From Marinobacterium litorale DSM 23545 (GTDB lineage Bacteria; Pseudomonadota; Gammaproteobacteria; Pseudomonadales; Balneatricaceae): a stretch of DNA of 64,000 nucleotides. The stretch is taken from the NCBI RefSeq assembly GCF_000428985.1, contig NZ_AUAZ01000002.1, forward strand, positions 248,001-312,000, read 5' to 3'. A program made the position numbers and the translations under genes. Positions within the stretch are counted from its first letter, which is position 1; each line of letters begins with the position of its first letter. The notes beneath the pieces were generated by a model. The model did not search any database. It saw nothing but the letters and a program-made list of their open reading frames with translations, and had not been told where the DNA came from. Shown one piece after another: positions 7,482 through 47,488 of the stretch.

Positions 7482-7500
7482 TCGAACACCGGACAAAAAT

Positions 7501-21140: not shown

Positions 21141-21187
21141 GGCCGGTTTTCTGGACCGTGTTCGGGAGAGCACGTATCCTTGGCGAC

Positions 21188-21694
21188 ATGATTAATATCG
21201 AATCACTTACCTTTAAATTCGATCCGGTGGAAGACCGCATCCGGCTGGTGGGCAACCTGGATAACGGCCAGACCCGTATCGATTTCTGGCTCACGCGGCG
21301 TCTCGCCCTGCGGATGCTTGATGCAGGTAACGAGATGGTTCAGCGCACCTCGGTTCGAGTCAGTAAGGTACCTTCCCAGTACCGGGAAGCCACGGCGCAG
21401 TTCGAGCATCAACAGGCGCAGGAACGCATGGAGGTCTCGCACCAACCGGTCGAGGAAACCGAGGAGCGTGAACCCGGGCTGCTGCAGCGTATTGACGTAA
21501 GCCATAAGGATGGCCGCTACCAGTTACGCCTCTTTAACCAGGATGAGCCCAACGAAGTGGCCGCCGTGAGCGTACTCAACTACGATGAGCTGCACCAGAT
21601 CCTCCATCTAATTCACAGCGGCTGCGAATCTCTGGACTGGGGCGCACCGGCACTTTTTGCAGGCCCCGCAGGGGAGGATCGTGTATTACAGTGA
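21188..21694 (+). CDS. Uncharacterised conserved-looking protein
   Basis: 168 residues from ATG 21188 (MINIESLTFKF); an in-frame codon at 21158 has no better support. No signal peptide or helix. The first 90 residues look like a beta/alpha domain (RLVGNLDNGQTRIDFWLTRR), followed by a Glu/Gln-rich linker (EHQQAQERMEV) and a C-terminal strand-rich part (RYQLRLFNQDEPNEVAAVSV). It begins 48 bases after the c-di-GMP gene and converges on the CofD-like gene with a gap of four bases. I do not recognise the family. Confidence 0.65.
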   Translation: MINIESLTFKFDPVEDRIRLVGNLDNGQTRIDFWLTRRLALRMLDAGNEMVQRTSVRVSKVPSQYREATAQFEHQQAQERMEVSHQPVEETEEREPGLLQRIDVSHKDGRYQLRLFNQDEPNEVAAVSVLNYDELHQILHLIHSGCESLDWGAPALFAGPAGEDRVLQ

Positions 21695-21698
21695 GGGG

Positions 21699-22889
21699 TC
21701 AGGCCAACGAAAGTAGCGCCTGAACCAGCGCTTCCGGGTCATATCGCTCTGGTTTATCGGGATTGATCAGCGACATATCAATCACCTCAATGCCCAGCGT
21801 TTTGCAAAGTTTATCCGGCACACCGCCCGGATAGGCACCCGCTTTACTGTCGAGCAGGATAAAGTCCAGAAAAGCCGTGGCCGGTGTTTCCTGATTGCCG
21901 GCGCTCAGATAACCCAATAAACGCTGCAAACTCATCTCCAGCGTCATGCCCAACTGCTCCGGATCATGCCCCAGGTTTGGTACATAGACCTTCGGCGACG
22001 GATTCTTCGCTATCGCCTCACTCACCCCATCGGGCAGCAGATTGGCCACCAGGCTGGAGTAAAAGCTACCGGGCGGGTAACAGATCAGATCGGCGTTCTG
22101 AATCAGTTTCCGATTACGTTTGCGCAGTTCAGCGCGGGCAGGGCGCGGATCATCCAGCCCCCGGCACAGGGATAAGGATTCAATCGACGACTGCAGCGGA
22201 TCGACCTCTTTCCCGGTCAGGCGATGCTGCCCCAGAATCTCCTCACCATCCGACAGCCGCGCTTTCAGGTGGTAATCATCGTCCACAATCGCGCGCACCG
22301 TGCCCTGCACGTTCACCAGCTTGGAAAACAGGAACAGGATCGGTTCCAGGTCGTTGTGGTTATTGATATAGCCACCGGCCAAAATCAAGTTGCCAATGCT
22401 GGCGCCGCTGAGATCAAAACCTTTGGGCATCGCCTCCATAAAGAAGCCCAAATGGTTGCAGATCAACTGCCGCATGGGGTTTGCGATATCATCAACGAGT
22501 GGATCCTTGCCGTCGACCATCGCCTCCAGCCGCGCCTTCAACACTTTATTGGGCTGATCCTTGGGAAAGCGAAAGGTGAACAGCCGATAGATCTCTGGAT
22601 GCCCGGTGACGCTTTCATCGGCCAGCGCCATCAATCGGCTGCGCAGATCGCCGATGGCAGGCATATCAAATGCCTGCCGGAGAATCGCCGAGCTACCGCC
22701 TGAATCGAACGGAGTCACCAAGTGGATTGAGTTGTGTGTGTATTCCTTGAGCGTCCGGGAGATCCCAGTGAGCGCTGTACCACCGCTGAAAAACAACAGG
22801 TTCGGTCCCAGTTCGGGCAACTTGCGATAGCGGCTCACTTTTAACGGATCGGGTAAACGGACGCTATGGGTGACGCGCACTCTGGTCAT
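21699..22889 (-). CDS. CofD/YvcK-like protein of the GAK-type cluster
   Basis: 396 residues. The nucleotide-binding start LLFFSGGTALTGISRTLKE (about residue 31) and the GGSSAILRQAF, AIGDLRSRLMALAD and ASIGNLILAGGYI segments are those of the CofD/YvcK fold. YvcK relatives bind nucleotide sugars and affect metabolism and the cell wall, while CofD transfers phospholactyl groups. This version has a 30-residue N-terminal extension and a longer middle than YvcK. It is divergent from the PhoU-APH/ATP-grasp/kinase operon, which is the arrangement I recall for the computationally defined GAK system. Its own substrate is unknown. Confidence 0.88.
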   Translation of the reverse strand: MTRVRVTHSVRLPDPLKVSRYRKLPELGPNLLFFSGGTALTGISRTLKEYTHNSIHLVTPFDSGGSSAILRQAFDMPAIGDLRSRLMALADESVTGHPEIYRLFTFRFPKDQPNKVLKARLEAMVDGKDPLVDDIANPMRQLICNHLGFFMEAMPKGFDLSGASIGNLILAGGYINNHNDLEPILFLFSKLVNVQGTVRAIVDDDYHLKARLSDGEEILGQHRLTGKEVDPLQSSIESLSLCRGLDDPRPARAELRKRNRKLIQNADLICYPPGSFYSSLVANLLPDGVSEAIAKNPSPKVYVPNLGHDPEQLGMTLEMSLQRLLGYLSAGNQETPATAFLDFILLDSKAGAYPGGVPDKLCKTLGIEVIDMSLINPDKPERYDPEALVQALLSLA

Positions 22890-23055
22890 CGACTATCCTG
22901 TCGTCTGGCGGGTGAAAACACAGAGTGTATCCAAAAAAGACTTACAGCCCAATGTATTACAGAATACACGAAATGTTGTATGTCATAATCCTGCAATGTC
23001 GAAACCGGGTCGAGTTCGGTATCCTTGACCCTGATTTTTCCTGTTGGCCAGCCAA
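22890..23055. promoter_or_regulatory. Divergent promoter region of the GAK-type cluster with an inverted repeat
   Basis: The only divergent control region of the cluster. It contains the 16-base inverted repeat TGTATT-ACAG-AATACA at 22953-22968 and a CATAAT sequence at 22984-22989 that could be a -10 element for the rightward operon. No clear -35 hexamer pairs with it. A regulator binding this repeat would control both arms; which one is not evident. Confidence 0.5.
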
Positions 23056-24693
23056 ATGATCAAACTGCCCAAGACCATTCGTGAAAACCTGCACTTTCTC
23101 AGTGTGGAGGTCGATTCTCAGGTCGCCAGCCTGCAGAGCTTCTTCGAGGAGCCCGGCAACCCGAGAATGCGCCGCATTCTGGACCGGGCCGGCTACGCCT
23201 ACAACCTGAAAACCCGTATCCATAACAGCACGGTACAAAAGCTCAGAGCGGGCAAGCGCAGGGCTCAGCGTGACATCAGTCTGCGCAGTGTTGAATTTAT
23301 CGCAACAGACCTGGAACGCATCGCCGAAATCAGCCGCAATTGCGTAAAACAGCTTGAGTACGTTGAGCACTATGCGCTCCTGCAGAACAAACGCCACCTG
23401 AAGATGCTCAAGCGTGTTCGACGCGGACTCAATGCACTAGAGGACGCGCTGGAAGCGCGCGATTCGGCGCCGGCCATTCAAATCGGCCAGCTTAACGACC
23501 GCCTGCTGGATGACTACAAAAAACTGCTACGCGGCTACGCTGCGGGACTCAAGGCACACCCTGAACACAGCGAAGAGCTGATCGCACTCCTGTTTGTTGC
23601 CTATGAGTTTCGTCAGATGGGCGATGCCCTCCTGCACATCAGTGAATCGATCATCTCAGCCAACCTGGGTCAGCCTGTCAGTTTCGAGCGCTATTTTTCG
23701 CTTCAGTCCCTGGTGGCTGAACTCGACGAAGACGAAGATGACCTGAAGATTCATACCATTGCTGAAACACGCTCCGGCAGTGCTATTTCCGGCATCTCCG
23801 GTAAGGAAGAGGAGAGTGGCTACCTGGCGATTTTTAAGGATGGGGAAAAGCGCAAACTCAAGGAGGAGCGTCAGGGCGTACGCAGCTGGCACGAAATCTA
23901 CCCGGGCCTGGCACCCAGAATTCTCTCCTACAAAAAGCGCGGACAGTCCGCCGCACTGTTGATCGAGCACCTGCCGGGCCACACATTCGAGCAGATTGTC
24001 CTCAACGAATCCGATGCCCTGGTGGATGAAACGCTGAAACGCCTGGGCAAGACACTGAAGTCGATCTGGAGCCAGACCCGCACGCTGGAGCCGGTATCGG
24101 CCAACTTTATGCAGCAGATGCAGAAACGGCTACCGGAGGTGTATCGCATACATCCGGAGTTCGATCAGGGTGACGGTTTTATCTGTGGCGTACCGGTCAC
24201 CTCGTTCACAACGCTGGTGGAACGCCTGCAGGAGCGGGAGAAAGGCTGGCCCGCACCGTTTTCTGTGTATATCCACGGTGATTTTAACGTGGACAATATT
24301 ATTTATGATCCGCTCGAGAAGCGTATCAACTTTATCGATCTGCACCGGTCGCGCTACATGGACTATGTTCAGGACGTTTCAGTCTTCATGGTCTCGAACT
24401 ACCGGCTGCAGATACTGGATGTGGAGACCCGCGCCCGTATCATGTCGCTGGCACAGGCGTTCTACAAACGGGCGTACCGTTATGCGCGGAAACAGCAGGA
24501 TGAACTGTTCGAAATCCGCCTGGCGCTGGGCCTGGCCCGTTCCTTTGCCACCTCAACCCGTTTTATCCATGACAAATCTCTGGCCCGGCGCATGTTTTTA
24601 CGAGCGCGCTATCTGCTTGAGCAGGTGGACCGTCTGCAGCCCGGCGAAGAAAAAAGCTACCGTATTCCGATGAAGGAGATCTTCGTTGACTGA
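23056..24693 (+). CDS. PhoU-like helical domain fused to an APH-type phosphotransferase
   Basis: 545 residues. Residues 1-220 are all-helical with PhoU/DUF47-like repeats (SVEFIATDLERIAEISRNCV, EYVEHYALLQN, FRQMGDALLHISESII). Residues from about 235 form an aminoglycoside-phosphotransferase/choline-kinase-like fold: YLAIFKDGEKRKLKEE, then catalytic loop YIHGDFNVDNIIYD (about residue 412) with Asp and Asn, and metal Asp in INFIDLHRSRYMDYVQDV. So it should bind ATP and phosphorylate a small molecule or protein. ATG 23056 is chosen; TTG 23044 is possible, and neither has a strong ribosome site. Overlaps the ATP-grasp gene by 8 bases. Confidence 0.85.
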   Translation: MIKLPKTIRENLHFLSVEVDSQVASLQSFFEEPGNPRMRRILDRAGYAYNLKTRIHNSTVQKLRAGKRRAQRDISLRSVEFIATDLERIAEISRNCVKQLEYVEHYALLQNKRHLKMLKRVRRGLNALEDALEARDSAPAIQIGQLNDRLLDDYKKLLRGYAAGLKAHPEHSEELIALLFVAYEFRQMGDALLHISESIISANLGQPVSFERYFSLQSLVAELDEDEDDLKIHTIAETRSGSAISGISGKEEESGYLAIFKDGEKRKLKEERQGVRSWHEIYPGLAPRILSYKKRGQSAALLIEHLPGHTFEQIVLNESDALVDETLKRLGKTLKSIWSQTRTLEPVSANFMQQMQKRLPEVYRIHPEFDQGDGFICGVPVTSFTTLVERLQEREKGWPAPFSVYIHGDFNVDNIIYDPLEKRINFIDLHRSRYMDYVQDVSVFMVSNYRLQILDVETRARIMSLAQAFYKRAYRYARKQQDELFEIRLALGLARSFATSTRFIHDKSLARRMFLRARYLLEQVDRLQPGEEKSYRIPMKEIFVD

Positions 24694-25582
24694 GCCCAAG
24701 ATTGCAGTTGTCGGCGTTCCGGGTAAATGGTCCACCGAGGTCCTTGCCGACGCGCTCGAGGACAGAACCGGCTATCGCCAGGTCATCGATATGGCAAACG
24801 TCGCCCTGGATCTGGGCACAGGGCAGCTCAAACAGGGTGATCTTGACCTGTGTGAGCTGGATGCACTGATCGTCAAAAAGATCAGTGGTGAATACAGCCC
24901 CACAACCATGGACCGCCTGGAGCTGCTGCGTTTTGCCGAAGCCAAAGGCGTGCGCGTATTCAGCTCTGCCGATCGCATGCTGAAGCTGATCGACCGCGCC
25001 AGCTGCACGCTAACCCTGGCTAACCAAGACATACCGATGCCGCCCACGCTCCTTACCGAAGATATCGATGCGGCGCTGTCAGCTATCCAGCGGTACCAAG
25101 AGGCGATACTCAAGCCCCTGTTTTCCACCAAAGCCCGGGGCATGATTGTGCTGGACGCATCGCAGGGCAGGGAGAAACTGCGCCGTCGCCTGGAGCGATT
25201 CCAGGAAAGCAACCCCATGCTCTATATTCAGAAGAAGCTGAACCTGAATGGACAGGACCTGGGCATGATCTTCCTCGGTGGACGTTATCTGGGTGCCTAC
25301 GCCCGCGTTTCCCGCGACGGTGCCTGGGATACCACCATCAACAGTGGCGGGCGTTACGCACCGTTTGAGGCTGATGACGCGCTGATCGAGCTTGCCCAGC
25401 GGGCTCAGGCACCGTTCGGGCTCGATTTCACCACCGTCGATGTGGCCATTACCGATCAGGGCCCCGTGGTTTTTGAAGTGTCCGCGTTCGGTGGTTTTAA
25501 AGGTGCGCTTAAGGGCGCCAATATTGATGCCGCAAAACTCTACAGTAACTACGTTCTGGAACAGCTTCACAATGGCCAATGA
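24686..25582 (+). CDS. ATP-grasp ligase of the GAK-type cluster
   Basis: 298 residues with RimK/glutathione-synthetase-like ATP-grasp layout: N-terminal domain to about 90, ATP-binding core with AILKPLFSTKARGMIVLD (about 138), YIQKKLNLNGQDLGMIFLGG, and a metal-binding end VAITDQGPVVFEVSAFGGFK, where Glu and the expected Asn position (here Ser) lie. Such enzymes join a carboxylate to an amine or thiol using ATP. Substrates are unknown. The start is TTG 24686, with an excellent AAGGAGA seven bases upstream. Overlaps its neighbours on both sides (8 and 11 bases), so it is strictly coupled to the two kinases. Confidence 0.88.
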   Translation: MTEPKIAVVGVPGKWSTEVLADALEDRTGYRQVIDMANVALDLGTGQLKQGDLDLCELDALIVKKISGEYSPTTMDRLELLRFAEAKGVRVFSSADRMLKLIDRASCTLTLANQDIPMPPTLLTEDIDAALSAIQRYQEAILKPLFSTKARGMIVLDASQGREKLRRRLERFQESNPMLYIQKKLNLNGQDLGMIFLGGRYLGAYARVSRDGAWDTTINSGGRYAPFEADDALIELAQRAQAPFGLDFTTVDVAITDQGPVVFEVSAFGGFKGALKGANIDAAKLYSNYVLEQLHNGQ

Positions 25583-26669
25583 TTCACCGGATTTCGTCGC
25601 ACAACACCTGATTGGAGGCGCTGAACTCAATCACGACCTGCGCCTGCAAAGCGGCGGGTGCGGTATTCATCTGCGTTCCAACAGTGCCGAGCTAATTGCC
25701 CGGCTCAGACAGTATTTTGCCCATATTGTGCGGGCACAGCTGGATACAGCCATCGAAGTGATCGCCGTGGAGCGCGATGCAGTCGAGCTGCCCTTTGAGC
25801 TGGTGGACTGGAAGCGGGAACCCGGCAAGAGCGGGCGTAAGGACGCAATTTTTAATCTCCCCGGCGCTCGGCTGATCCATAAAGTGCGAACCGGCATGAA
25901 CTTCCTGCAGAGCCCGCAGCTGCGCATCGCGGCGGGGCCCTGTGTCGCCCATGACAACCAGGTGATCAACTTCATCAACAACCAGCTCATGACCGAGCTG
26001 CAGAATGACGGCTGGCTGAACTGTCACGCAGCCGCCTTTGAGTACCAGGGGCAGGCGCTGGCCATCGCCGGTTTTTCCGGGGGTGGTAAATCCACATTGA
26101 TGCTGCATCTGCTTGAAGACCCGGCGACACGGTTCATGACCAATGATCGCCTCTTTATCAAACGCGAAGGAGAGGACACCCAGGCCACCGGCATTCCCAA
26201 ACTGCCGCGAATCAATCCCGGCACCATTCTCAACAACCCGCGTTTACAGCCACTGATTGACCCGGAACGGCGCGACCAGCTGGCGAAAATGGATCGCGCA
26301 GAGCTGTGGGAGCTGGAGGAAAAGTTCGACGCCGATATTGAATCCCTCTATGGGCCGGACCGCATTCAACCGGAATCCCGACCACTTAAAGCGTTTCTGG
26401 TACTGAACTGGAAACGGGACAGCGATGCGCCGCTCACGCTGAACCGCGTACAACTGGATCAACGCCCGGACCTGCTGGCCGCCATCATGAAATCCCCCGG
26501 CCCATTTTATCAACGCCAGGATGGCAGCTTTCTCAGTGACGATAACACAATTGATCCTGCCCCCTATCTCAGCTATCTGCGCGGTGTTACCGTCTATGAA
26601 GCCAGCGGTGGAATCGACTTTGACGCGCTGGCAGAGCGTTTCAAAGCCCAGGTAGAGCAACATGATTGA
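25572..26669 (+). CDS. HprK-related serine kinase (type B) of the GAK-type cluster
   Basis: 365 residues from ATG 25572, chosen because the upstream extension of the frame is antisense-like sequence overlapping the ATP-grasp gene. A Walker A P-loop GFSGGGKST sits at about residue 169, preceded by NCHAAAFEYQGQALAIA, and followed by MTNDRLFIKREG, the position of the second HPr-kinase motif. The fold is that of the C-terminal domain of HPr kinase/phosphorylase. There is no HPr gene nearby, so the target is something else. The 3' end overlaps the SixA-Nudix gene by 8 bases. Confidence 0.87.
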   Translation: MANDSPDFVAQHLIGGAELNHDLRLQSGGCGIHLRSNSAELIARLRQYFAHIVRAQLDTAIEVIAVERDAVELPFELVDWKREPGKSGRKDAIFNLPGARLIHKVRTGMNFLQSPQLRIAAGPCVAHDNQVINFINNQLMTELQNDGWLNCHAAAFEYQGQALAIAGFSGGGKSTLMLHLLEDPATRFMTNDRLFIKREGEDTQATGIPKLPRINPGTILNNPRLQPLIDPERRDQLAKMDRAELWELEEKFDADIESLYGPDRIQPESRPLKAFLVLNWKRDSDAPLTLNRVQLDQRPDLLAAIMKSPGPFYQRQDGSFLSDDNTIDPAPYLSYLRGVTVYEASGGIDFDALAERFKAQVEQHD

Positions 26670-27630
26670 AGTAATGCTGTTGCGCCACGGCAAGGCGAAA
26701 AAGAGCAGCGACGGACACGACTTTGACAGACCGCTGAAAGAGCGGGGTAAGCGGGGTGCCCAACGCACCGGTGCCTGGCTCGCGCAAACCGGCAACCTGC
26801 CAGCGCGGGTTATCTGCTCGCCGGCTCGCCGGGCGCGGGAGAGCGCTGAGAAATGTGTTAAGGCGATGGGCGCAACCGTAGAACGGATCGAGAATGACGA
26901 CCGGCTTTACTGCGCCAGCGCCAGCAGCCTGTTCGATCGTCTGATTGAAGCCGCCTCTCAAACATCACCGGTAATGCTGGTGGGTCACAACCCGGGACTT
27001 GAGCAGCTCGCCCGACAGCTGCTTCCGGAATCCGTCTGCAATCAGTACGACACACTGATGCCGGCAGGCACCTTGCTGCGCCTTGCACTGCCGGAGACCC
27101 AGGCGTTTCCGCTCGATGGCGGCGCTGCGCTGCTGGAGCGGATAACCCCGGATGAGCTTCCCGACGGTTTCCCCTGGCCGGCACCCGACGGTCGGGAGCG
27201 CCGGGAGCGCCCCGCCTATTACTACACACAATCGGCGGCGATACCTTATCGGATTCAATCCGGCGAAGTGGAAGTTTTGCTGATCACCTCCAGCAGCGGA
27301 CGGTATTGGGTTCTCCCCAAGGGGATTGTTGAACCCGGGCTTTCGCCTCAGGCATCCGCAGCCAAGGAGGCGCGCGAAGAGGCCGGCATTGAAGGTAATG
27401 TGCAGGAACAAGCTCTGGGTCAGTACCGCCAGGCGAAATGGGGCGCCCATTGCGATATTCAGGTTTACCCCATGCAGGTTACGCGCGAGCTGCCCGACAA
27501 GGAGTGGGAAGAAACCCACCGCGAGCGTCGCTGGCTACCGTTAAAGCAGGCGTGCAGCTTCCTCAAAAACCCTGATCTGGCCGACATTGTCAGAACCCTG
27601 CCTGAACACCTCCAGGGGACAAACCCGTGA
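26662..27630 (+). CDS. SixA-type phosphohistidine phosphatase fused to a Nudix hydrolase
   Basis: 322 residues. Residues 1-150 are a SixA-like histidine phosphatase: catalytic LRHGKAKKSS (residue 7 onward), then ICSPARRARESAEK and VGHNPGLEQLARQL with the second His. From about residue 185 a Nudix domain follows with Nudix box GIVEPGLSPQASAAKEAREE; it keeps the EE pair but has Leu for the first Glu and Lys for the Arg, as in some diphosphoinositol/ApnA-type enzymes. Nudix enzymes split nucleoside-diphosphate links. The fusion suggests one protein that clears both a phosphorylated side chain and a nucleotide-linked intermediate. Overlaps the neighbouring genes on both sides. Confidence 0.9.
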   Translation: MIEVMLLRHGKAKKSSDGHDFDRPLKERGKRGAQRTGAWLAQTGNLPARVICSPARRARESAEKCVKAMGATVERIENDDRLYCASASSLFDRLIEAASQTSPVMLVGHNPGLEQLARQLLPESVCNQYDTLMPAGTLLRLALPETQAFPLDGGAALLERITPDELPDGFPWPAPDGRERRERPAYYYTQSAAIPYRIQSGEVEVLLITSSSGRYWVLPKGIVEPGLSPQASAAKEAREEAGIEGNVQEQALGQYRQAKWGAHCDIQVYPMQVTRELPDKEWEETHRERRWLPLKQACSFLKNPDLADIVRTLPEHLQGTNP

Positions 27631-28325
27631 CCAGACGGATAGCCGCACTTGTGCGCCACGGCGATTATCATCAACTTGCGGGAACACCGAGTGCCCACCA
27701 GCCGTTTGGCCTCAATGAGCGTGGCCATGAGCAGGCACGACGCGGTGCGGAGCTGATGAAAAGTCAGTTAGCCGAAAACGGCTGGATACTGGACGCTCAG
27801 GTTGTCAGTTCCACGCTATTACGGGCCTGGCAAACCGCCGAGCTTTTCATCGACACGCTGAGCACGACCTGCTCAGAACCGATACAACACCGCAGCGAGA
27901 GCGCCCTGTGTGAGCGCTGTGTCGGCAGCGCCGCCAATCTGACCAGCGACCAGATCTACCGGATTGTTGAATCCGATCCCCGGTTTGAAACGCCACCGGC
28001 GGATTGGAAGTCCAACAGCCATTATCGTCTACCCTTGGAGGGAGCGGAGTCATTAATGGAGGCAGGAGAGCGCGTTGCCGCGTGCCTGCGCCGTGAACTC
28101 GAAGCGCTGGAGGAATCAGCGCAGCCGGGTGTGCGCCTGTTTGTGGGCCATGGTGCTGCATTCCGGCACGCGGCGCACCGACTCGGCGTTTTACCTTTTG
28201 AACGGATCGCCGAGCTGAGTATGTACCACGCTCATCCGGTGTATCTGGAGCTCTGTTCCGACGGCCAGTGGCGCCACGTGGGCGGGGACTGGAAGGAGCG
28301 CAAGCGCGAAGGGTTTACAGACTGA
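27627..28325 (+). CDS. Second histidine phosphatase superfamily protein
   Basis: 232 residues. The catalytic motif ALVRHGDYH (about residue 7) is followed by GLNERGHEQARRGAELM, VVSSTLLRAWQTAEL and FVGHGAAFRHAAHRLG with the second active-site His, all typical of phosphoglycerate-mutase-like phosphatases. It is larger and more distant than the SixA domain encoded just before it, so the two are not a simple recent duplication. ATGA overlap with that gene shows co-translation. Substrate unknown. Confidence 0.88.
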   Translation: MTRRIAALVRHGDYHQLAGTPSAHQPFGLNERGHEQARRGAELMKSQLAENGWILDAQVVSSTLLRAWQTAELFIDTLSTTCSEPIQHRSESALCERCVGSAANLTSDQIYRIVESDPRFETPPADWKSNSHYRLPLEGAESLMEAGERVAACLRRELEALEESAQPGVRLFVGHGAAFRHAAHRLGVLPFERIAELSMYHAHPVYLELCSDGQWRHVGGDWKERKREGFTD

Positions 28326-28391
28326 CATATAGTCGACACATTGGCTCACTAGAATATCGGCCCACTCTTATAACTCAAATGTCTCAGGTCC

Positions 28392-29729
28392 ATGCGCGCA
28401 CTAAAATCCCTACCCGACATCAAGCCGATTCCGACCCACCGAGCCATCATCGATCGGCTGCCGACCCATGTGGAGCCCTGGGACCTGAGCCATACCCATT
28501 CGGCCAACCGTAATGCCATCGACCCGATCATTTTCCAGCAGTCATTGGGCGGTGATATCAACGGTGCTTGGCGCTGGCCGCGGCGGCCGATCTACTTCAT
28601 CGCCGACCCCCACGCCGATGCGCAGGCCTTTATCGACTCTCTGGTGGCCACCGGTACCGTGGTAAAGCGGGGCGACAAACCCACCGAGTTCGAGCTGAAT
28701 CGGGCAGGGAAGGACGCCATCTACGTGATTGGGGGTGACTGCCTGGACAAGGGGCCCAGTAACTTGGAGTTACTGCGTGCGATTCGCCACCTCATGGGAC
28801 TTAGCAAACGCGTCAAGCTGCTGGCCGGCAACCACGATGTGCGGCTGTTGATGGGAATCCGAACCGTTACCGGCGACTGCGATACCACCACCGAACATCT
28901 TTTTGTTCGCATGGGCGACAAGGTGATACCGCTGTTCAAGGAGATCCACCGGGTTTACCTGGCCGGCAAAAAGATCCCCAAGAAAATACCGGATGAGGCG
29001 ACCTGTCGGGCAAAGCTGTTTCCCTCGGAGGACTGGTTCGAACAGTTCCCCCGGGAAGCCGCTGATTTTATGAGCGAAGCCGCCATCGAGCGCGAACTCA
29101 AGCGCATGCGCAAGAAGGTAAACGGCTTTGAGACCTCCTGCCACAAAGCCGGTTTTACGCTGCGAGAGATCTACCATATCGCGCTAACCTGTCGTGCCCT
29201 GTTTCTCAAGCCCAAAGGTGAGTTCAGCTGGTTTTACCGGGAGATGCGCCTGGCCTACCGTAACGGGGCTTTCCTGTTCGTACACGCAGGGCTGGATGAT
29301 GCCATCAGCGAAGCTCTGCGGGACAAGGGGGTCAAACATCTGAACCGTCAGTTCCGTAAGCAGATCAAAAACGACCTGTTCCATTTCTACTTCGGTCCAC
29401 TGGCCAATACCATGCGCACCAAATATCGCCCGGCGGACCTCTCCCTGACTGAGACTGGGTTAACCGCGTTGCGGGAAACGGGAATCCGTACACTGGTCCA
29501 CGGCCATATCAACCGGTTGCACGGTCAACGTCTGGCGGTTAAAGAGGGGATGCTGCATATCGAAGGCGATATCACGCTGGACCGAAATTCACGCCGTAAA
29601 GAGGGGCTTCATGGGGTCGGTGCCGGTGTAACCGTAATCCATCCGGATCGGCATATCCTGGGAATCAGCGTAGACTACCCCAAAGCCAAACTGTTTCGCC
29701 CGGAAGCTTGCGAGTATCAAACATGCTAG
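28392..29729 (+). CDS. Calcineurin-type metallophosphoesterase of the GAK-type cluster
   Basis: 445 residues. Metal-binding motifs appear in order: FIADPHADAQAF (DxH variant, about residue 72), VIGGDCLDKGPSN (GDxxD), LLAGNHDVRLLMG (GNHD), FLFVHAGLDDA and LVHGHINRLHG. This is a full two-metal phosphoesterase site. A large insert between GNHD and the last motifs (about 150-310) contains a basic helical stretch. It lies 66 bases after the second phosphatase gene, with a weak AGG before the ATG, and overlaps the amphi-Trp gene by 7 bases. Probable role: removing the phosphate put on by the kinases encoded upstream; inference. Confidence 0.88.
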   Translation: MRALKSLPDIKPIPTHRAIIDRLPTHVEPWDLSHTHSANRNAIDPIIFQQSLGGDINGAWRWPRRPIYFIADPHADAQAFIDSLVATGTVVKRGDKPTEFELNRAGKDAIYVIGGDCLDKGPSNLELLRAIRHLMGLSKRVKLLAGNHDVRLLMGIRTVTGDCDTTTEHLFVRMGDKVIPLFKEIHRVYLAGKKIPKKIPDEATCRAKLFPSEDWFEQFPREAADFMSEAAIERELKRMRKKVNGFETSCHKAGFTLREIYHIALTCRALFLKPKGEFSWFYREMRLAYRNGAFLFVHAGLDDAISEALRDKGVKHLNRQFRKQIKNDLFHFYFGPLANTMRTKYRPADLSLTETGLTALRETGIRTLVHGHINRLHGQRLAVKEGMLHIEGDITLDRNSRRKEGLHGVGAGVTVIHPDRHILGISVDYPKAKLFRPEACEYQTC

Positions 29730-29986
29730 AGAACAAAAACCGCTTCAGACACCAGTCCCTGCAGGATAGCGAGAGCATTCAGGAGCTTCTGAACTCGATT
29801 GCGGCGGGCATCAAGAAAGGGGAGATCACCTTCAGCGACCAGGATGGTGAGATCCGGCTGGAGCCCAAGGGCCTGCTTGACCTTAAAGTGACCGCCAGCG
29901 AAGAGGAATCGCGTCACCGCCTGGAGCTTCGTATCAGCTGGCAGAGTGATCAGCCGCTCAAGAGCAACAGCCTGTCGGTTAAGTAA
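29723..29986 (+). CDS. Small amphi-Trp-type protein
   Basis: 87 residues from ATG 29723. It matches the amphi-Trp domain pattern I recall: FRHQSLQDSESIQELLNSIA, then GIKKGEITFSDQDGEIRLEP, then KGLLDLKVTASEEESRHRLE and ELRISWQ, ending in the domain's Trp. Such proteins are small, highly charged and tied to GAK-type clusters. As the only non-enzyme of the cluster it is a natural candidate for the carrier or target of the modifying enzymes; this is inference. It is the last gene of the operon and nearly meets the convergent EAL gene, with 7 bases between. Confidence 0.8.
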   Translation: MLENKNRFRHQSLQDSESIQELLNSIAAGIKKGEITFSDQDGEIRLEPKGLLDLKVTASEEESRHRLELRISWQSDQPLKSNSLSVK

Positions 29987-34332: not shown

Positions 34333-36072
34333 ATGAGTCAGGCGATGATGTCTGAATTACGCCAGTTTGTTGAAGATGAAATGGAGGCGACCCGGTCTCA
34401 GTTGTTTGATACCTGGGAACGGTCGTTGCCAGAAAAGCTCCTTACCGGCCATAGTCAGTCCTTTACCAAGCTCGAAGAGGGACCATCCCGCGATACTGTT
34501 TGGGCCTATCCAGACCCGGAGCAGGAATCGCGTTTTCGTGAAGGTGATTTGCTGCGCCTGCATTTGGGAGACCCCTTCGAGGAGGTAGCCGCCCAGTTGG
34601 TCCTGGAAGAGGAAGCCGACGACTGCTGGTTGTTAAGCGGCCATAATTTACCCGGCTCTGCCTGGGAACGTGTGGCAAACCAGCTCACTTATGCGGACCC
34701 CGACATGATAGACCTCAGCGGTATGTATCAGCAGGCGCTGGATGATATCGCGCGCTCTCCGGTCGGACGGCAGTTAGTGTTACCGCTACTGAGCGGAGCC
34801 CTTCCGGCCGACCAGCTTAACAGCGCCGACTATGACGCCGCCGCCGACATCGCAGAGTCCGGTTACGGATTTAATGAGGATCAGGTTGATGCGGTGGGGT
34901 GGGCTTGCGGTGCGCGTTATCTGGCTTGTATCCAAGGTCCACCTGGCACAGGGAAAACCCGCGTCTTGGCACTGATCGCCAAGTTGTTGGTGACGCGTGG
35001 TGAGCGGATTCTCGTTACTTCTCACACGCATATGGCAATTAATAACGCTCTGAATCGTATCTACGAGGAAGGCGTAGAAACAATCAAAGTCGGTAAACAT
35101 ACCTCGTTAAAAGGATTGCGCCCTGAAGTGGAGTGCTATGAGACATTTCGCGAATGGGAGGACTGCCCCAAAGACGCGGGCTATGTGATAGGCGCAACGC
35201 CCTTTGCCACCTGCACCTCAAGACTTGAAGAGCACCTTTTCGATACCGTTATTTTTGACGAAGCCAGCCAGGTCACATCGCCCTTGGCGCTGATGGCGAT
35301 GCGACGGGCGAAGCGTTTCGTTTTTATCGGCGATCACAGGCAGCTCCCGCCAGTGGTTAGTTCGCTCTCGGTATTGGATATCGGTTCTGCTTCCGTCTTC
35401 GCTCGGTTATTGAGCGCCGAACGGGAGAATGTGGTCACGCTCAATACCACCTACCGCATGAACGCATCGCTGAGCGCTTGGCCCAGCGAACAGTTCTATG
35501 CCGGTTTACTGCAATCTGATGGGGCTAACAAAAACCGCCGCTTTTCGTTGCCCAATACCCCTGGGGAGTATCAGCCGATACTTAACGGTGATCACAGTCT
35601 GGTGTTTATAGAAAGCACAGGGCGGAATTCGCGTAGTATCAATCAGGACGATGCTGTACTCATTGCGAAACTCTGCAAAACCTGCATCGATTCCGGGCTC
35701 TCGCCCAAAGAGATAGGAGTTGTTGTTCCTTTCAGGAACCAAGGACGGCGTATACGCACCATGCTGCGGCGTTATCTGGGCCCGGCTATCGCGAAGCTGA
35801 TCGTCGCCGATACGGTGGAGCGTATGCAGGGCCAGGAAAAAGAGCTCGTTATTCTCAATATGACAGCGACAGATCCGCAATACCTCTGTTCGTTAGCCGG
35901 CTTCCTTTTCCAGCCGCAGCGCATGAATGTGGCTGTAACTCGCGCTAAAACCAAGACAATCGTCATAGGGCCAGAGGTCGACGACGAGTTCTTTCATGAA
36001 GAGCCCGAGATTGGCGAGTGGGTCGATATGTATCGCAGCTTGATCGCAAGTTGCCATCGCACAACCATCTAA
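34333..36072 (+). CDS. SF1 helicase, Upf1-like (AAA_11/AAA_12 type)
   Basis: 579 residues. A 190-residue N-terminal region without recognised motifs is followed by a complete helicase set: QGPPGTGKTRVLALIAKLL (motif I, about 200), VIFDEASQVTSPLAL (II), FIGDHRQLPPV (III), LNTTYRMN (IV), VERMQGQEKELVILNMT (V) and RMNVAVTRAKTKTIVIGP (VI). The DEAS box and GDHRQLPP are those of Upf1/DNA2-type enzymes acting on single strands. It sits 13 bases before a second SF1 helicase gene on the same strand. Family members occur in both repair and phage defence; the neighbours suggest the latter. Confidence 0.9.
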   Translation: MSQAMMSELRQFVEDEMEATRSQLFDTWERSLPEKLLTGHSQSFTKLEEGPSRDTVWAYPDPEQESRFREGDLLRLHLGDPFEEVAAQLVLEEEADDCWLLSGHNLPGSAWERVANQLTYADPDMIDLSGMYQQALDDIARSPVGRQLVLPLLSGALPADQLNSADYDAAADIAESGYGFNEDQVDAVGWACGARYLACIQGPPGTGKTRVLALIAKLLVTRGERILVTSHTHMAINNALNRIYEEGVETIKVGKHTSLKGLRPEVECYETFREWEDCPKDAGYVIGATPFATCTSRLEEHLFDTVIFDEASQVTSPLALMAMRRAKRFVFIGDHRQLPPVVSSLSVLDIGSASVFARLLSAERENVVTLNTTYRMNASLSAWPSEQFYAGLLQSDGANKNRRFSLPNTPGEYQPILNGDHSLVFIESTGRNSRSINQDDAVLIAKLCKTCIDSGLSPKEIGVVVPFRNQGRRIRTMLRRYLGPAIAKLIVADTVERMQGQEKELVILNMTATDPQYLCSLAGFLFQPQRMNVAVTRAKTKTIVIGPEVDDEFFHEEPEIGEWVDMYRSLIASCHRTTI

Positions 36073-36085
36073 AAGACAACGAAAC

Positions 36086-38065
36086 ATGGCACTACTGATA
36101 CCCGAAACGCTGGATACTTTGCCCAATGCCCATCGGCGTCATCTGGCCAAGGCACTGCGCGAGCTGGCCGATGACTATAGCGTACGAATCCCGTTTAGCA
36201 TTCCTGATGTTTTCGATCTGGTTATCACCAAAACTGGTGGTACTTGGTTGGGTCTCGCTTTTGTCGAAACGATCGAAGAGGTAAAGGACAAAGCCAAGGC
36301 ATTATTCAGCGCGGTAAAAAACTGGTCTCAAAGATGTATGGAGGCCACCGGGAGTTCCGCTCAGCTAGAGCTGCTTATCGTGGTCTTAAAAGCGAAAGGT
36401 AGTGAGCCTAAGGATAAAAGCTGGAGTGAACTCAGACTTCGGATAGTGAGTAAACCGTATTTTCTGGAGAACACAGCCACATTGCTCGAAGATTCCAGGC
36501 CGCTTCCGCGGGCCGGGTTCGATTGGCTGTTTCATGAGTTCTTCCCGGAGCGCGAGGTGCCGGCGGCGTGCACGACCCGGACAGTTATCGAAAGAGATAA
36601 CTCGGCTCAGCTCTCCCGGTTTTTCCTCGATTACGATCAGGAGCTGGCTGCCAAGCTGGACCTCCTCAAAGCCAATAGTGATTCAGGAGATCTGTCCGTT
36701 CGACTGATCAATGGCGTGGCCGGCAGTGGTAAAACGCTGATCATTGTCAGCCGGATTTTGATGTACTGCCAGCAACACCCGGATCACAAGGTTTTATTGC
36801 TGATTCACAACAAGCCGGTGACAGCTGATATCCGATACAAAATCAATAAGTATTGGGGGGGTGAGCCGCCGAATCTTACGATCAAGACTTTCTGGTCCTG
36901 GTGTCGTGGTCAATGGGATGAGGCTTTTGGAAAGGGGTACCTGAAGCTCCTGTTTAATACCGATAAAACTGTTGGCGGCTATATCAAGGATCAGCAGGGA
37001 CGTTACGGTGTCGGTAAGCGCCTTACCGCTAATCAGATACGTGATGAAATTGAGTTTCTAAACGACAACTTTATCTCCGATGAAACCGCATACCTAGATA
37101 CAAATCGGGCAGGGCGCGGCTTTGCATTACGTTCGGAAGAGCGGGCGGAGCTTTGGCAGCTGAGAAACGAAGTTGTGGCAAAGTTCGGCGAGAAGTCGGG
37201 ACTACTCTCTAGCCTGATGCCAAACCGATTATGTTCCGCCACCGCAACTGAAAAACTGGAGCGCTATGACCATATTATCGTTGATGAAGCTCAGTTTTTC
37301 GCGCCAAGCTGGTTTGAGCTGGTGAAAAGAAGCTTGCAGCCATCGGGCAGCCTCTTTCTCTGCGCTGACCCCAATCAGGGGTTTCTGAAGTCGCGCCTGA
37401 GCTGGAAAAGTGCAGGGATTAATGTGCGGGGGCGTACTAAGCGTCTGCATAAAAGTTATCGTACCACTCGGCAGATACTGCATGCTGCCAACAGCTTTTT
37501 ATCCGAGTTTGCGCCGGAGCTTGATGAAGACTACTTAAAGCCCGAATACGAGGGCATGAGTCAGGGCGTTAAGCCGATGCTTCTGTATAAGCAGTCGCCC
37601 CAGGATGCACTGGAGCAGCTTGTTAACGAAGTGCGCGATCTGATCGATAACGGCCGCCCACCTGGGCAAATACTGGTGCTTTACACAACGGGTGTTTACC
37701 CCTCTACCGTCCAGCAGCGCCTTGAGACTGTCGTGGCTGCCGATGAGATATGGAACTTCTCCAATAAAAACGGCGATAAAGCTCCTGCTGACGACAAACC
37801 GGGGTTCCTGAAAATCGCAAAGCTCGATGCCGCAACCGGCCTCGAGGCGGGTGTTGTGTTTATTCTTGGAGTGGATCAGCTTTTCTCAGAATATGAATCG
37901 TTGGATTTGAACGAAGAGGAGCGAACAGAAAAACGTCAGGAATGCGCCCGTAAACTCTATATGGGGATGACCCGAGCCGGACAAAGGCTCGTCCTGTTTT
38001 CGACGACCAAATTGCCCGATGCGCTCGAACAGTGTGTTGAGACTAAAGGTACACCCGGCCTATAA
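36086..38065 (+). CDS. SF1 helicase, UvrD-like
   Basis: 659 residues. The N-terminal 200 residues are of unknown type and could hold a restriction-like domain, though I see no clear catalytic set. Motif I INGVAGSGKTLIIVSRILMY is at about 210, Walker B HIIVDEAQFFAPSWF at about 395, motif III LCADPNQGFL, motif IV RLHKSYRTTRQILHAAN, and motif VI KLYMGMTRAGQRLVLFS at the end, as in UvrD_C_2-type helicases. It begins 13 bases after the Upf1-like gene with the same orientation, so the two are likely made together. Confidence 0.9.
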   Translation: MALLIPETLDTLPNAHRRHLAKALRELADDYSVRIPFSIPDVFDLVITKTGGTWLGLAFVETIEEVKDKAKALFSAVKNWSQRCMEATGSSAQLELLIVVLKAKGSEPKDKSWSELRLRIVSKPYFLENTATLLEDSRPLPRAGFDWLFHEFFPEREVPAACTTRTVIERDNSAQLSRFFLDYDQELAAKLDLLKANSDSGDLSVRLINGVAGSGKTLIIVSRILMYCQQHPDHKVLLLIHNKPVTADIRYKINKYWGGEPPNLTIKTFWSWCRGQWDEAFGKGYLKLLFNTDKTVGGYIKDQQGRYGVGKRLTANQIRDEIEFLNDNFISDETAYLDTNRAGRGFALRSEERAELWQLRNEVVAKFGEKSGLLSSLMPNRLCSATATEKLERYDHIIVDEAQFFAPSWFELVKRSLQPSGSLFLCADPNQGFLKSRLSWKSAGINVRGRTKRLHKSYRTTRQILHAANSFLSEFAPELDEDYLKPEYEGMSQGVKPMLLYKQSPQDALEQLVNEVRDLIDNGRPPGQILVLYTTGVYPSTVQQRLETVVAADEIWNFSNKNGDKAPADDKPGFLKIAKLDAATGLEAGVVFILGVDQLFSEYESLDLNEEERTEKRQECARKLYMGMTRAGQRLVLFSTTKLPDALEQCVETKGTPGL

Positions 38066-38540
38066 CTCGAGTGGTCTAGCATCGCCTTCTGGGGCAAGAG
38101 GTAACCCTGATCCTTAACCTTGGCGGGCATGCTGGTCAGCCAGGCGCCTGCCCGGTAGCCCGTCATCTCTTCAGCGTCACGAGAGCCAGAACAGATTGTG
38201 TGAAGTGCTCCCACAGGTAACACGCCACACGAATATATTTTCCGTTGGGCGATGCCGAGTCCCGTCCCAACACGCAGAAAATCTTTCCAAAAATCATTTT
38301 TTATAAAAAAAGCTCCCCGGGAGGAAGAAAATCTCTCCGAGAAGCGATTACCTATCACGGTCAACACGCGAATTCAATATCAACTGTGGCATGAATGCTT
38401 ATACAACCTCGTCCAACAGGCTGATCTGAAGCGCGTCGAGATGTTCGCGAGTGCGTGCGAAAGGGCAGTCAGCAGAGTTCTAAGGAATAAACCCGTCGTA
38501 TAGAATGGGGATCCGCTTATAACAACGACACGGAGATGTC
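38066..38540. other. Gap after the helicase pair, mostly non-coding
   Basis: A 475-base stretch. It contains a TTTTTTATAAAAAA palindrome at 38297-38310, unusual in this GC-rich setting, and a possible 83-codon frame listed separately. The left part has an antisense open frame (37957-38367) whose residues do not look like a real protein. No RNA gene seen. Confidence 0.5.
38252..38503 (+). CDS. Possible small protein upstream of the NERD gene
   Basis: 83 codons. The first third is basic (RRKSFQKSFFIKKAPREEEN) and may be spurious, being read through an A/T palindrome. The second half has a helical, protein-like composition (YQLWHECLYNLVQQADLKRV, then EMFASACERAVSRVL). It ends 37 bases before the NERD-domain gene in the same direction. 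No good ribosome binding site stands before the ATG, and a shorter product starting at an internal GTG is possible. Family not recognised; weak call. Confidence 0.3.
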   Translation: MPSPVPTRRKSFQKSFFIKKAPREEENLSEKRLPITVNTRIQYQLWHECLYNLVQQADLKRVEMFASACERAVSRVLRNKPVV

Positions 38541-39530
38541 ATGCCCATCGTCACCACGAAACACCAACAGGAGCTTTCGGATGTCCGCCAAATCGCAGGC
38601 GATAAGCAAGAACGTGATGTGGCGTTTTATCTACGCCGTGCTTTTAAGGACAGTGATGATATCTATGTCTTTAACGACTACGCGTTTAGCTATGATGATG
38701 AACGTGCGCAGATCGACCATCTGATCGTTCACAAGTACGGCTTTCTGATTCTCGAGTCCAAAAGCATTTATGGTGAGGTGAAGGTCAACGGTGCGGGTGA
38801 GTGGGCACGCAGCTATAACGGCAACTGGGCCGGCATTCCGTCCCCGATCAGACAGGCTGAGCTGCAACAAAAACTACTGAAAAAAATGCTCGTTGAGAAC
38901 GCGGCTGATTTCCTGGGTAAAATCTTGGGTCTTCAACAGAACGTCGGCGGCCGTAAATGGGAGGCTTTGTGTGTGGTCTCCAACACCTGCATTTTGCATC
39001 GCGAAGACATCCCGGCGGATATCAACAAGCGAATCATCAAAAGTGAGGCGGTCGCCGATGCGGTTGACAAAATCGGCGGTAAAGGACGGCTTAAAGCCTT
39101 TATCGAAACCAGCCCGGCGTTTTCGGCTGACGAGTTGCGCAGCATAGCGGACTATCTGCTCACGAGGGCATCCCTTGCAGCCGCGCCGGATCCAGAGCCT
39201 TCCGCCGCCGCTCCGGCATCGACCCCGGTAGCAGAGCCTGTCACTGAGGTGAGAGAGCCTACCACGAAGCCAGCGCCAGTCGCTGAACCAGCACCTTCGG
39301 CCCAAATCAGCTGCAAAAAATGTGGCGAGGCCCAGCGTCTTACCGGTTCCTACGGAAAATATGGCTATTACGTGAAGTGCGAGGCGTGCGGTGCCAACAC
39401 CTCCATGCGTCAGCCTTGCATCCGCTGCGGTAGCAAGGACGTCAAAGTCATGAAGAAGCGGCAGGAGTATTGGGCAACCTGTTCCTGTTCCGATCCTTAT
39501 CTGCTGTTTACTCAGCCACGCTCGAGCTAG
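38541..39530 (+). CDS. NERD-domain (nuclease-related) protein with C-terminal zinc ribbons
   Basis: 329 residues. Residues about 20-135 are a NERD domain: the core AQIDHLIVHKYGFLILESKS gives the conserved Asp and the Glu-x-Lys of a PD-(D/E)XK-like nuclease fold. A Pro/Ala/Glu linker (about 210-255) follows, then two Cys4 zinc ribbons: CKKCGEAQRLTGSYGKYGYY with CEAC, and CIRCGSKDVKVM with CSC. Zinc ribbons of this topoisomerase-like kind bind DNA. It follows two helicase genes, consistent with a nuclease partner. GGAG precedes the ATG by about six bases. Confidence 0.88.
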   Translation: MPIVTTKHQQELSDVRQIAGDKQERDVAFYLRRAFKDSDDIYVFNDYAFSYDDERAQIDHLIVHKYGFLILESKSIYGEVKVNGAGEWARSYNGNWAGIPSPIRQAELQQKLLKKMLVENAADFLGKILGLQQNVGGRKWEALCVVSNTCILHREDIPADINKRIIKSEAVADAVDKIGGKGRLKAFIETSPAFSADELRSIADYLLTRASLAAAPDPEPSAAAPASTPVAEPVTEVREPTTKPAPVAEPAPSAQISCKKCGEAQRLTGSYGKYGYYVKCEACGANTSMRQPCIRCGSKDVKVMKKRQEYWATCSCSDPYLLFTQPRSS

Positions 39531-39928
39531 ACCGGATGACCGGGCCGGGCCGGGCCTCGGGCGCGGCCACTTAACCGGCTGCTCCCAGTCCTTTTCAGCA
39601 TGGCCTATCTCTTGGCGACTTAGCACAAGCCCGAAAAGGTCAAGACGATAAGAAACCTCACACCCCGTAACCCGGCAGAAGCCGCAGGCGTTTGCCCGGA
39701 AAAACACACCTGCGACTCGGACTCAACAACACCCTGTAGTACACTGATTTCCAATCAGAATTGCGCGGGCGCCCCCATCTAATTGCTGGGCCGCATTAAT
39801 AACCTAAAGCACGCGAACTCCATGGAACCCGAGTACCGAAACATCTATTTTGCCTTCCGAATAGTACTTCCGAAACTGGGGACCTTCGCATGGTATTCTC
39901 CGGAGAAGCGAAAGGAAAACCCATAGCA
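39531..39928. other. Non-coding gap at the edge of host-like sequence
   Basis: 398 bases without a credible gene. It begins with a short CGGGC-rich repeat tract (about 39540-39570), contains REP-like copy C, and then drops in GC content towards the next gene. This is the last place where the host-type REP unit is seen. Confidence 0.55.
39671..39699. repeat. REP-like hairpin, copy C
   Basis: Outer arms CCCGGCA/TGCCCGG (one mismatch), inner GCC/GGC around GCA. Intergenic, 140 bases after the NERD gene. It is the most diverged of the three copies. Confidence 0.7.
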
Positions 39929-41736: not shown

Positions 41737-41883
41737 TGGGGACTACCCTGTCCGATAGAGGATCATTAAACGGACGCTCTGCCGCCTGTTCTTTGGAGCG
41801 CGCCAATGCGGCATATGCCGTGTCTCATTTAGATGGTACTATATTTTTTTCAGTGAAGGGGCCTCTTGCGTTACAAATCACCC

Positions 41884-42468: not shown

Positions 42469-42539
42469 AAGGTGACGTGCACTTCCAGAATCGCCTCTTA
42501 CATAAAGCTGTACATAACCCAATTATTCTCCCCCCGACC

Positions 42540-43225: not shown

Positions 43226-43297
43226 AGGACATGTCAGTGAAAGCGGGAATCGACCCTAGTCTAACGCACGAGGTCATCGGCCTGACGCCTGGCTGAG

Positions 43298-43813: not shown

Positions 43814-43907
43814 GGTGGCGCATCCGCGCTCTCTTGAACCGCATTCGCTCATTGGTGTCCCTCAAGTCGCTCAACTGATGTCGCCTATCGCGATTCCCAT
43901 CGCAGCT

Positions 43908-44063
43908 TTACAGACGATTGTTTTTATCTTCGTCGGCAAAGGGAAGGTTGGCTGCATCCTCAAACTTCTTTTTGTGTCCTGGAAGCAGCACCCAGATGAA
44001 CAAAGCGATAAAGGTGATGAGCATGATGACAGGCAGATAGGGACCGTACACTTCGTAGTTCAT
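43908..44063 (-). CDS. ccoQ: cbb3 oxidase subunit CcoQ
   Basis: 51 residues from ATG 44063: MNYEVYGPYLPVIMLITFIA, then LFIWVLLPGHKKKFEDAANL and PFADEDKNNR. One membrane helix followed by the K-K-x-F-E/D-D-A-A-N-L-P-F tail, which is diagnostic of CcoQ. It lies six bases after ccoO, in the standard N-O-Q order. CcoQ stabilises the cbb3 complex. The ccoP gene that should follow is missing. Confidence 0.9.
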   Translation of the reverse strand: MNYEVYGPYLPVIMLITFIALFIWVLLPGHKKKFEDAANLPFADEDKNNRL

Positions 44064-44069
44064 GGTTAA

Positions 44070-44690: not shown

Positions 44691-44709
44691 GGCATCATTC
44701 CGATTGCCC

Positions 44710-47442: not shown

Positions 47443-47488
47443 ATCGTTTGAAGCTGTGATTCCGTTGTCCTAACCGCCTGCGCGGTCA

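Follow-up and report, generated by a model that had tools for sequence, protein, structure and literature searches.

Which proteins make up the GAK system, and what do they do for the cell? The question is raised by a gene cluster at positions 21699 to 29986 of a 64,000-nucleotide stretch of the Marinobacterium litorale DSM 23545 genome (contig NZ_AUAZ01000002.1, positions 248,001 to 312,000 of the forward strand), which was analysed at its full length and is called the window below. GAK has hitherto been a name without a function, as the initial annotation of the window had it: in a literature search that left subscription papers and preprints mostly uncovered, we found no paper on the GAK system, amphi-Trp, HprK-related kinase B or three model accessions, and none joining the GAK families with the Pho regulon or phosphate. 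The locus is an ordinary GAK member, and what is new is a revised membership of the system and a lead towards phosphate that was absent from the earlier interpretation. Our reading is that GAK serves phosphate or polyphosphate homeostasis as a phospho-ligation module. As a whole explanation we give this a probability of roughly 0.45, while the link between GAK and phosphate, taken alone, is probable. Phosphate or polyphosphate stress thus becomes the physiological lead that makes the function of GAK open to ordinary experiments.

Gene content and distribution of GAK

The locus is a complete GAK system. All eight open reading frames that the initial annotation had listed are present and carry the domains it claimed for them, and its assignment of the kinases, ligase and phosphatases to GAK holds, as the four NCBIfam GAK models (TIGR04354-TIGR04357) all score above their cut-offs in this one locus. 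A CofD-like protein of 396 amino acids is encoded on the minus strand (21699-22889; TIGR04357, 535.9 bits, cut-off 340). The plus strand encodes, in this order, a PhoU-APH kinase (23056-24693; Pfam PhoU 35.5 bits, APH 45.9 bits), the GAK ATP-grasp ligase, which resembles RimK, LysX and MptN (24686-25582; TIGR04356, 426.9 bits, cut-off 300), the P-loop protein HprK-related kinase B (HprK-B, 25572-26669; TIGR04355, 341.9 bits, cut-off 200), a SixA-type histidine phosphatase fused to a Nudix domain (26662-27630; His_Phos_1 39.5 bits, NUDIX 44.2 bits), a histidine phosphatase family protein (27627-28325; His_Phos_1 68.2 bits), a calcineurin-type metallophosphoesterase with distant similarity to ApaH (28392-29729; Metallophos 28.5 bits) and an amphi-Trp protein of the GAK type with 87 amino acids (29723-29986; TIGR04354, 74.2 bits, cut-off 31). 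Pfam gathering thresholds are passed by CofD, by APH and PhoU in one protein, by RimK, by NUDIX and His_Phos_1 in one protein, by the second His_Phos_1 protein, by Metallophos and by Amphi-Trp; HprK-B has no Pfam match above gathering. The starts at 23056, 25572 and 29723 are the likelier ones, chosen by script from profile extents. Neighbouring genes on the plus strand overlap (end/start 24693/24686, 25582/25572, 26669/26662, 27630/27627 and 29729/29723), and a gap of 66 bases separates the histidine phosphatase from the phosphoesterase. Because CofD lies on the minus strand, divergent from the other seven genes, the eight do not form the single transcription unit that had been proposed: the operon has seven genes, not eight, and shares with CofD the intergenic region 22890-23055.

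To which extent this gene set is typical was read from related loci. The ATP-grasp profile found 481 related places in a set of genomes at species level; we retained the best 80, a sample that leans to close relatives; together with the window this makes 81 loci, by their titles mostly from Gamma- and Alphaproteobacteria with one from Mariprofundaceae. Six-frame translations were searched with profiles of the eight families, and gene content was tallied in 52 loci, the window among them, that span at least 20 kb, the other 29 being shorter, mostly cut by contig ends. PhoU-APH, ATP-grasp, HprK-B, the phosphoesterase and amphi-Trp occur together in all 52 long loci and the histidine phosphatase in 51, so that a core of six is found in 51/52. 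SixA-Nudix is present in 26 of these loci and CofD in 22, and all eight genes occur in 15. The plus-strand members keep the same order on one strand in 52/52 long loci; the order is rearranged in 4 of the 29 shorter ones, and gene orders differ from the usual one in two loci of a class sample (L033 and L037). The set is hence present in many genomes rather than in this one only, and the second kinase and the phosphatases, which the initial annotation had taken for an expansion, normally form part of the locus in the relatives compared. Indeed, PhoU-APH, the histidine phosphatase and the metallophosphoesterase are as constant in the long loci as the members named in the NCBIfam GAK system. No fusion between GAK families was detected in the 81 loci at 40 bits, SixA-Nudix being counted as one family.

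CofD, in contrast, is optional in related loci, though it is a named member of the NCBIfam system and had been counted as core in the initial annotation. It is missing from 30 of the 52 long loci, and in all 33 loci that have it, it lies on the opposite strand. We searched for GAK CofD in 22 whole genomes, some of them metagenome-assembled genomes (MAGs), comprising four controls with CofD at the locus (L040, L043, L052 and L077) and 18 genomes chosen since their locus lacks it. All four controls were positive; nine of the 18 have a GAK CofD elsewhere and nine have none above cut-off, and to judge from the titles several of these last nine are isolates. CofD thus does not always accompany the ligase, being missing from 9 of these 22 GAK genomes, 18 of which had been chosen for its absence from the locus. 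Where it is found, CofD is well preserved, with DSGGSS in 31/31 sequences compared (here and below, conservation counts include only proteins that cover 75% of the profile and have no internal stops). Judged by the gene tallies and the whole-genome search, GAK in its usual form includes PhoU-APH and the phosphatases, CofD lies outside its irreducible core, and CofD and SixA-Nudix are optional members. The parts list of GAK is thereby revised.

A ninth family, a small Nudix gene that the window does not have, occurs in 52 of the 81 loci and lies upstream of PhoU-APH in all of them but L076, the match in L063 being weak. The XXXCH protein (TIGR04358), which is part of some GAK systems, has no match in this genome, and its model also matched nothing in 14 control genomes. 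A reduced locus (L032) in a single-contig genome of 1.9 Mb holds only HprK-B, ATP-grasp, PhoU-APH and amphi-Trp, and that genome (G053) has no phosphoesterase of the GAK type at E 1e-20. Beside CofD of the window lies a convergent gene (21158-21694) for a protein of 178 amino acids that has no Pfam or NCBIfam match. In each of the three congeners that carry GAK this protein likewise adjoins CofD (58-68% identity). Of the 81 loci, the window and the Marinobacterium loci L040 and L041 are the only ones that have it; it is possibly a genus-specific partner of GAK.

The same families travel together across genomes. In one sample of 274 gammaproteobacterial genomes, with a limit of E 1e-20 or better for PhoU-APH and the phosphoesterase, GAK ATP-grasp scores above cut-off in eight, and a ninth (G265) holds the gene in two pieces. 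PhoU-APH is found in ten genomes, namely the nine with GAK ATP-grasp and G196, whereas the phosphoesterase and HprK-B (above cut-off) are each found in eight, every one a GAK genome. Fisher tests of co-occurrence with GAK give p values of 5e-16 for PhoU-APH and 1e-14 for the phosphoesterase, relatedness being ignored. The G196 copy belongs to a decayed locus (L175) on a 4.6-kb contig (C7, 1-4581), where CofD, the small Nudix gene and SixA-Nudix are whole, PhoU-APH and the phosphoesterase are in fragments, and neither ATP-grasp nor HprK-B is found on that contig; here GAK is being lost piecemeal. Closer to the window, HprK-B occurs in 4/8 genomes of its genus, in 0/28 other members of its family and in 5/57 relatives overall, and in the three congeners that have GAK the eight genes are complete and ordered as in the window. 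ATP-grasp is also found on five plasmid records, the same five that have amphi-Trp; in the three plasmids inspected, all from Rhodobacterales, the annotation shows the operon genes next to one another, with surroundings that differ between the plasmids, once without CofD. The picture that these comparisons suggest is that of a self-contained, patchy proteobacterial cassette, probably gained and lost largely as a whole.

PhoB-box-like sites and phosphate genes around GAK

PhoB-box-like sites are enriched upstream of the GAK operon, as shown by computation on 62 upstream regions left after removal of near-identical ones. In a test of the 11-base PhoB repeat none of 419 permuted heptamers scores as high, and among 11 spacings tested the 11-base period gives the best result. 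In the 29 best sites (at least 10 matches) the spacer, which was left out of the scoring, is 72% A+T, compared with 49% in the regions. A matrix built from seven E. coli-type PhoB sites gives z 6.5 upstream of the operon (0/400 column permutations), compared with z between -1.0 and 0.5 upstream of ATP-grasp, HprK-B and amphi-Trp. A matrix score of at least 13 is reached by 10/62 GAK upstream regions and by 6/585 arbitrary intergenic upstream regions (p 1.6e-7), and a score of at least 10 by 16/62 and 30/585, respectively. With one value per genus-level group, 9/46 groups reach 13, groups being assigned from record titles and MAGs without a genus name forming groups of their own. These pooled tests replaced a single-locus scan with mononucleotide shuffles that was indecisive for most loci. 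In the window the candidate site is the direct repeat ATGTCAT-AATC-CTGCAAT on the plus strand (22980-22997), 76 bases before the start of PhoU-APH, and three congeners have a related repeat at the aligned place. A sigma-70 promoter scan gave one weak match, below the number in shuffles.

The genes around GAK point in the same direction in some lineages. Clustering of neighbours, which like the comparison with other genes below rests on a greedy gene caller that lost genes, returned CHAD with ParA in six loci, PPK1 in four, and Na/Pi cotransporters. In a Ketobacter locus (L045) GAK sits amid phosphate genes, in the order pstS-pstC-pstA-pstB-phoU, GAK, phoR, phoB; all seven encoded Pho proteins score above one or more curated cut-offs, PstC with a margin of 0.4 bits. 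The genes that flank GAK in an Ectothiorhodospiraceae MAG (L081) are PstS- and PhoU-like genes, CHAD, one for a TIGR00153 protein above its cut-off, an adjoining permease of the Pit or sulfate type that is below both cut-offs, and PPK1. Overall, the GAK flanks hold 37 phosphate or polyphosphate genes in 879 kb, compared with 4 in the 1456 kb covered by 73 arbitrary regions, a count that was made post hoc, with families chosen after they had been sighted and seeds taken from GAK flanks, and in which genes of one operon are not independent. GAK thus shares neighbour genes and PhoB-box-like sites with the Pho regulon and ppk-CHAD-Nudix clusters in several lineages, but 68/81 loci have none of the counted families in the stretch covered. 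What PMC8003754 reports on ppk neighbours in other bacteria fits what is seen around GAK: genes for Nudix hydrolases and histidine phosphatases are among those most often found downstream of ppk, CHAD is a further ppk neighbour, and CHAD is described there as a polyphosphate-binding module.

In six GAK loci (L112:15404-17799, L093:1043-3321, L081, L086, L056 and L117) a CHAD-domain protein is paired with a ParA-type ATPase, and the pairs occupy at least three positions relative to GAK. Perhaps CHAD and ParA act together in positioning polyphosphate granules.

Candidate target, chemistry and rival explanations

From the parts themselves we infer what the substrate and the chemistry of GAK might be. 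The predicted model of the PhoU-APH kinase (predicted local distance difference test, pLDDT, 88.7; predicted template modelling score, pTM, 0.62) consists of PhoU-type helices up to about residue 204, followed by a kinase of the APH/choline-kinase type. The model superimposes on PhoU (1t72) over about 200 columns with a root-mean-square deviation of 1.9-2.0 and a template modelling score (TMt) of 0.85-0.86, Pfam PhoU scores 35.5 bits against a gathering threshold of 23.5, and in a fold search APH(3')-Ia is the top match. As modelled, the first part of the protein has the PhoU fold, and the second part carries the catalytic loop of APH enzymes (HGDxxxxN and a following Asp): HGDFNxDN is found in 77/77 and DLHRS in 75/77 proteins. 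APH-type kinases act mostly on small alcohols. A PhoU domain fused to a kinase would bear on how PhoU signals.

For the ATP-grasp enzyme, the best NCBIfam model after its own is MptN (143.6 bits, residues 12-285), with CofF also matched, and profile matches in the PDB comprise LysX, RimK and related chains, the best of which align from about position 83 on and others, such as 7qyr, over nearly the whole length. By sequence profile it is therefore close to the RimK, LysX and MptN ligases, but differs from them in an element discussed below. HprK-B retains SGGGKST in 71/73, HA[AST] in 73/73 and NDR in 73/73 proteins, and its P-loop, His152 and Asp192 are invariant among 36 sequences. In a single comparison by hhalign with 13 canonical HprK sequences (probability 57, E 1e-4), His152 and the P-loop align with a His and the P-loop of HprK, which makes the HprK label plausible, but not proven. 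As for the enzymes that may remove phosphate, the metal motifs GGDxxD and GNHD of the phosphoesterase are present in 67/67 proteins; the protein has no solved relative by profile at E 0.001, and the best ApaH-type model reaches 28.5 bits, compared with a cut-off of 176. The histidine phosphatase is without RHG in 9/73 by a simple motif test of the first 20 residues.

The small amphi-Trp protein, of which the GAK copy is the only one found in the genome, is the likeliest target of these enzymes, to judge from its conserved residues. An FxHxS motif (F8, H10 and S12; 29744-29758, plus strand) is present in 63/64 amphi-Trp proteins of GAK loci and in all seven further GAK-locus copies inspected; the exception, L053, has the His one residue earlier, and the Ser is at its place in 64/64. 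Amphi-Trp also occurs apart from GAK, scoring above cut-off in 23/274 genomes, of which 15 are without GAK. The stand-alone proteins (L159-L170) have about 75 amino acids and mostly read RDIEK...LRRLADALE..., and in 12 of them compared by eye FxHxS is found in none and the RD(I/V)EK start in 11, L161 differing; they look like a different subtype. It is because this His and Ser are fixed only beside an HprK-related kinase and histidine phosphatases that we regard amphi-Trp as the likeliest target, and FxHxS is a sharp sequence mark for it. In the predicted fold, a single helix (16-32) and four strands, the motif directly precedes the helix. The five models have pLDDT values of 85, 81, 63, 54 and 53. 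No known fold could be assigned, as Foldseek gave no match with E under 0.001 and a second structure search reached a Z of 3.2 at most (GnsA), which is not meaningful. That amphi-Trp is a modified carrier is a tentative idea. Carriers of the LysW type take their cargo on a conserved C-terminal Glu, and a LysW-like role of the amphi-Trp terminus was rejected, as the C-terminal tails vary in length and in their end, with no column after W73 that is 90% conserved.

With phosphocarrier control by HprK, HPr and SixA, GAK shares an HprK-related kinase, a SixA-type phosphatase and a small partner that carries a conserved His and Ser. A module that alters the covalent state of amphi-Trp, or of a partner bound to it, during phosphate shortage or polyphosphate use is what the parts list and the Pho context lead us to propose. 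When phosphate is short, PhoB would switch the GAK operon on in some lineages, and the PhoU part of the kinase might read phosphate status, directly or via a Pst/PhoU complex, and steer the kinase part. In the way that HprK phosphorylates HPr, HprK-B would phosphorylate the Ser of FxHxS at the helix head; alternatively, the kinases may act on the His. The ATP-grasp enzyme could then, via an acyl-phosphate, link amphi-Trp or a small molecule bound to it with a carboxylate, possibly glutamate, while the histidine phosphatase, the metallophosphoesterase and the Nudix domain would undo the modification or destroy nucleotide or pyrophosphate by-products, and CofD would add an optional extra transfer step. 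Each particular reaction in this scheme is doubtful. The initial annotation had already drawn a cycle of phosphorylation, transfer, ligation and removal as a guess from domain names; FxHxS lends indirect support to amphi-Trp as the target in such a cycle, the reactions of which are hypothetical. In its most specific form, a new protein-modification system induced by phosphate starvation, in which FxHxS of amphi-Trp, a carrier or regulator, is phosphorylated by the HprK-related kinase and the PhoU-gated APH kinase, amidated by the ATP-grasp enzyme, and reset by dedicated phosphatases, the proposal is rather unlikely to be right. If it were, phosphate or polyphosphate status would be linked to a covalent mark that has not been seen before.

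Several results weigh against a role in phosphate homeostasis by phospho-ligation. The PhoB matrix is imperfectly specific: it gives z 3.2 (0/400) upstream of the phosphoesterase and z 2.6 (1/400) upstream of other genes in these loci, the latter control being partly made up of likely Pho genes, as pstS and phoB of L045, CHAD of L093 and Na/Pi-type genes of L113 and L104 are among its top scores. Scores below 10 are found in 14 of 16 upstream regions of Roseibium and in all three regions each of Halomonas and Onishia, and the site in the window, with 11/14 positions and a score of 10.9, is weak alone. As for the neighbours, the excess is modest when counted by locus (13/81 compared with 4/73, p 0.03), in addition to the post hoc choice of families and the dependence among genes of one operon; none of the Roseibium loci has phosphate or polyphosphate neighbours, twelve Pho and polyphosphate seeds have no match in the window at E 1e-5, and two permeases labelled Pit are uncertain, the one tested having a better score for a CysP-type sulfate permease than for PitA, with both scores below cut-off. 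The enzymes raise difficulties of their own. RimK-like ligases bind metal through the Asn of their E-x-N element, and GAK ATP-grasp has a Ser in its place (FEVSAFGG in 80/81 and FEISAFG in 1/81). The similarity of HprK-B to real HprK is weak: a PDB profile search returned only P-loop matches to an ABC transporter and no HprK, and canonical HprK (TIGR00679, E 1e-10) has no match in this genome. SixA lacks RHG in 6/42 proteins. As a further difference from the HprK, HPr and SixA proteins, amphi-Trp is predicted to consist of a helix and four strands and has no Foldseek match at E 0.001.

The main rival explanation is that GAK makes a small cofactor like F420 or methanopterin. PhoU-APH would phosphorylate an alcohol, in keeping with the usual substrates of APH-type kinases, CofD would form a phosphodiester, the ATP-grasp enzyme would add glutamate like CofF or MptN, the latter being its closest match after its own model, and amphi-Trp would bind the product. 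The strong membership of GAK CofD in the CofD family fits such a route, but a GAK CofD is missing altogether from nine of the 18 genomes without CofD at the locus, with all four controls positive, and the replaced metal-binding Asn counts against a ligase of the RimK type here as well. We therefore consider a cofactor pathway unlikely. Still less probable is that GAK turns over a nucleotide alarm signal of the ApnA or pyrophosphate type, with amphi-Trp as the receptor, the phosphoesterase and Nudix degrading the signal and the kinases and ligase using it. The ApaH-type similarity of the phosphoesterase hints at such a substrate, but at 28.5 bits it stays far under the 176-bit cut-off, and the Nudix domains that would serve the same end, fused to SixA and in the separate small gene of 52/81 loci, are not universal, SixA-Nudix being present in only 26/52 long loci.

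The patchy distribution of GAK (HprK-B in 5/57 relatives and 4/8 congeners), its presence on five plasmid records and a defence-like helicase cluster about 4 kb downstream in the window could also indicate a mobile cassette for defence or stress immunity. This is very improbable, as PADLOC gives no match for seven of the eight proteins and only a 16.8-bit match to the Nudix part for the eighth, and as none of 33 pattern matches in viral contigs is a relative of the ATP-grasp protein; a phage origin was rejected as well. PHROGs matches are limited to SixA-Nudix (two Nudix families and one family of unassigned function), the histidine phosphatase (the same family of unassigned function) and the phosphoesterase (NinI-like). 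Nor is it credible that the operon merely collects independent housekeeping enzymes. Every enzyme family in it does have housekeeping cousins, but in the 274 genomes neither PhoU-APH nor the phosphoesterase is found apart from GAK or its relic, and 52/52 long loci have the same gene order, so that of all the explanations this one appears the least probable. A phospho-ligation module that serves phosphate or polyphosphate homeostasis thus remains the reading that we prefer.

Other regions of the window

Downstream of GAK lie four plus-strand genes (34333-41368), two for helicases of the superfamily-1 type, one for a protein with a NERD domain and one for a Schlafen-type helicase protein. PADLOC gives partial matches for three of them (MkoA, NERD+UvrD and PDC-S41/AbiO/Nhi), and the group could be a defence-type cluster. 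The region that follows (41866-56351) looks like a mobile metal-resistance island, with a resolvase (41866-42468), a heavy-metal P-type ATPase (48819-51062), a CtaG-type gene (53236-54198), an SBF-family transporter (55374-56351) and, by eye, MerR-, LspA-, DsbA- and DsbB-like genes. At the other end of the window (1907-9311), genes that by eye resemble those for xanthine dehydrogenase, OHCU decarboxylase, HIU hydrolase and ureidoglycolate lyase look like a cluster for purine or urate breakdown.

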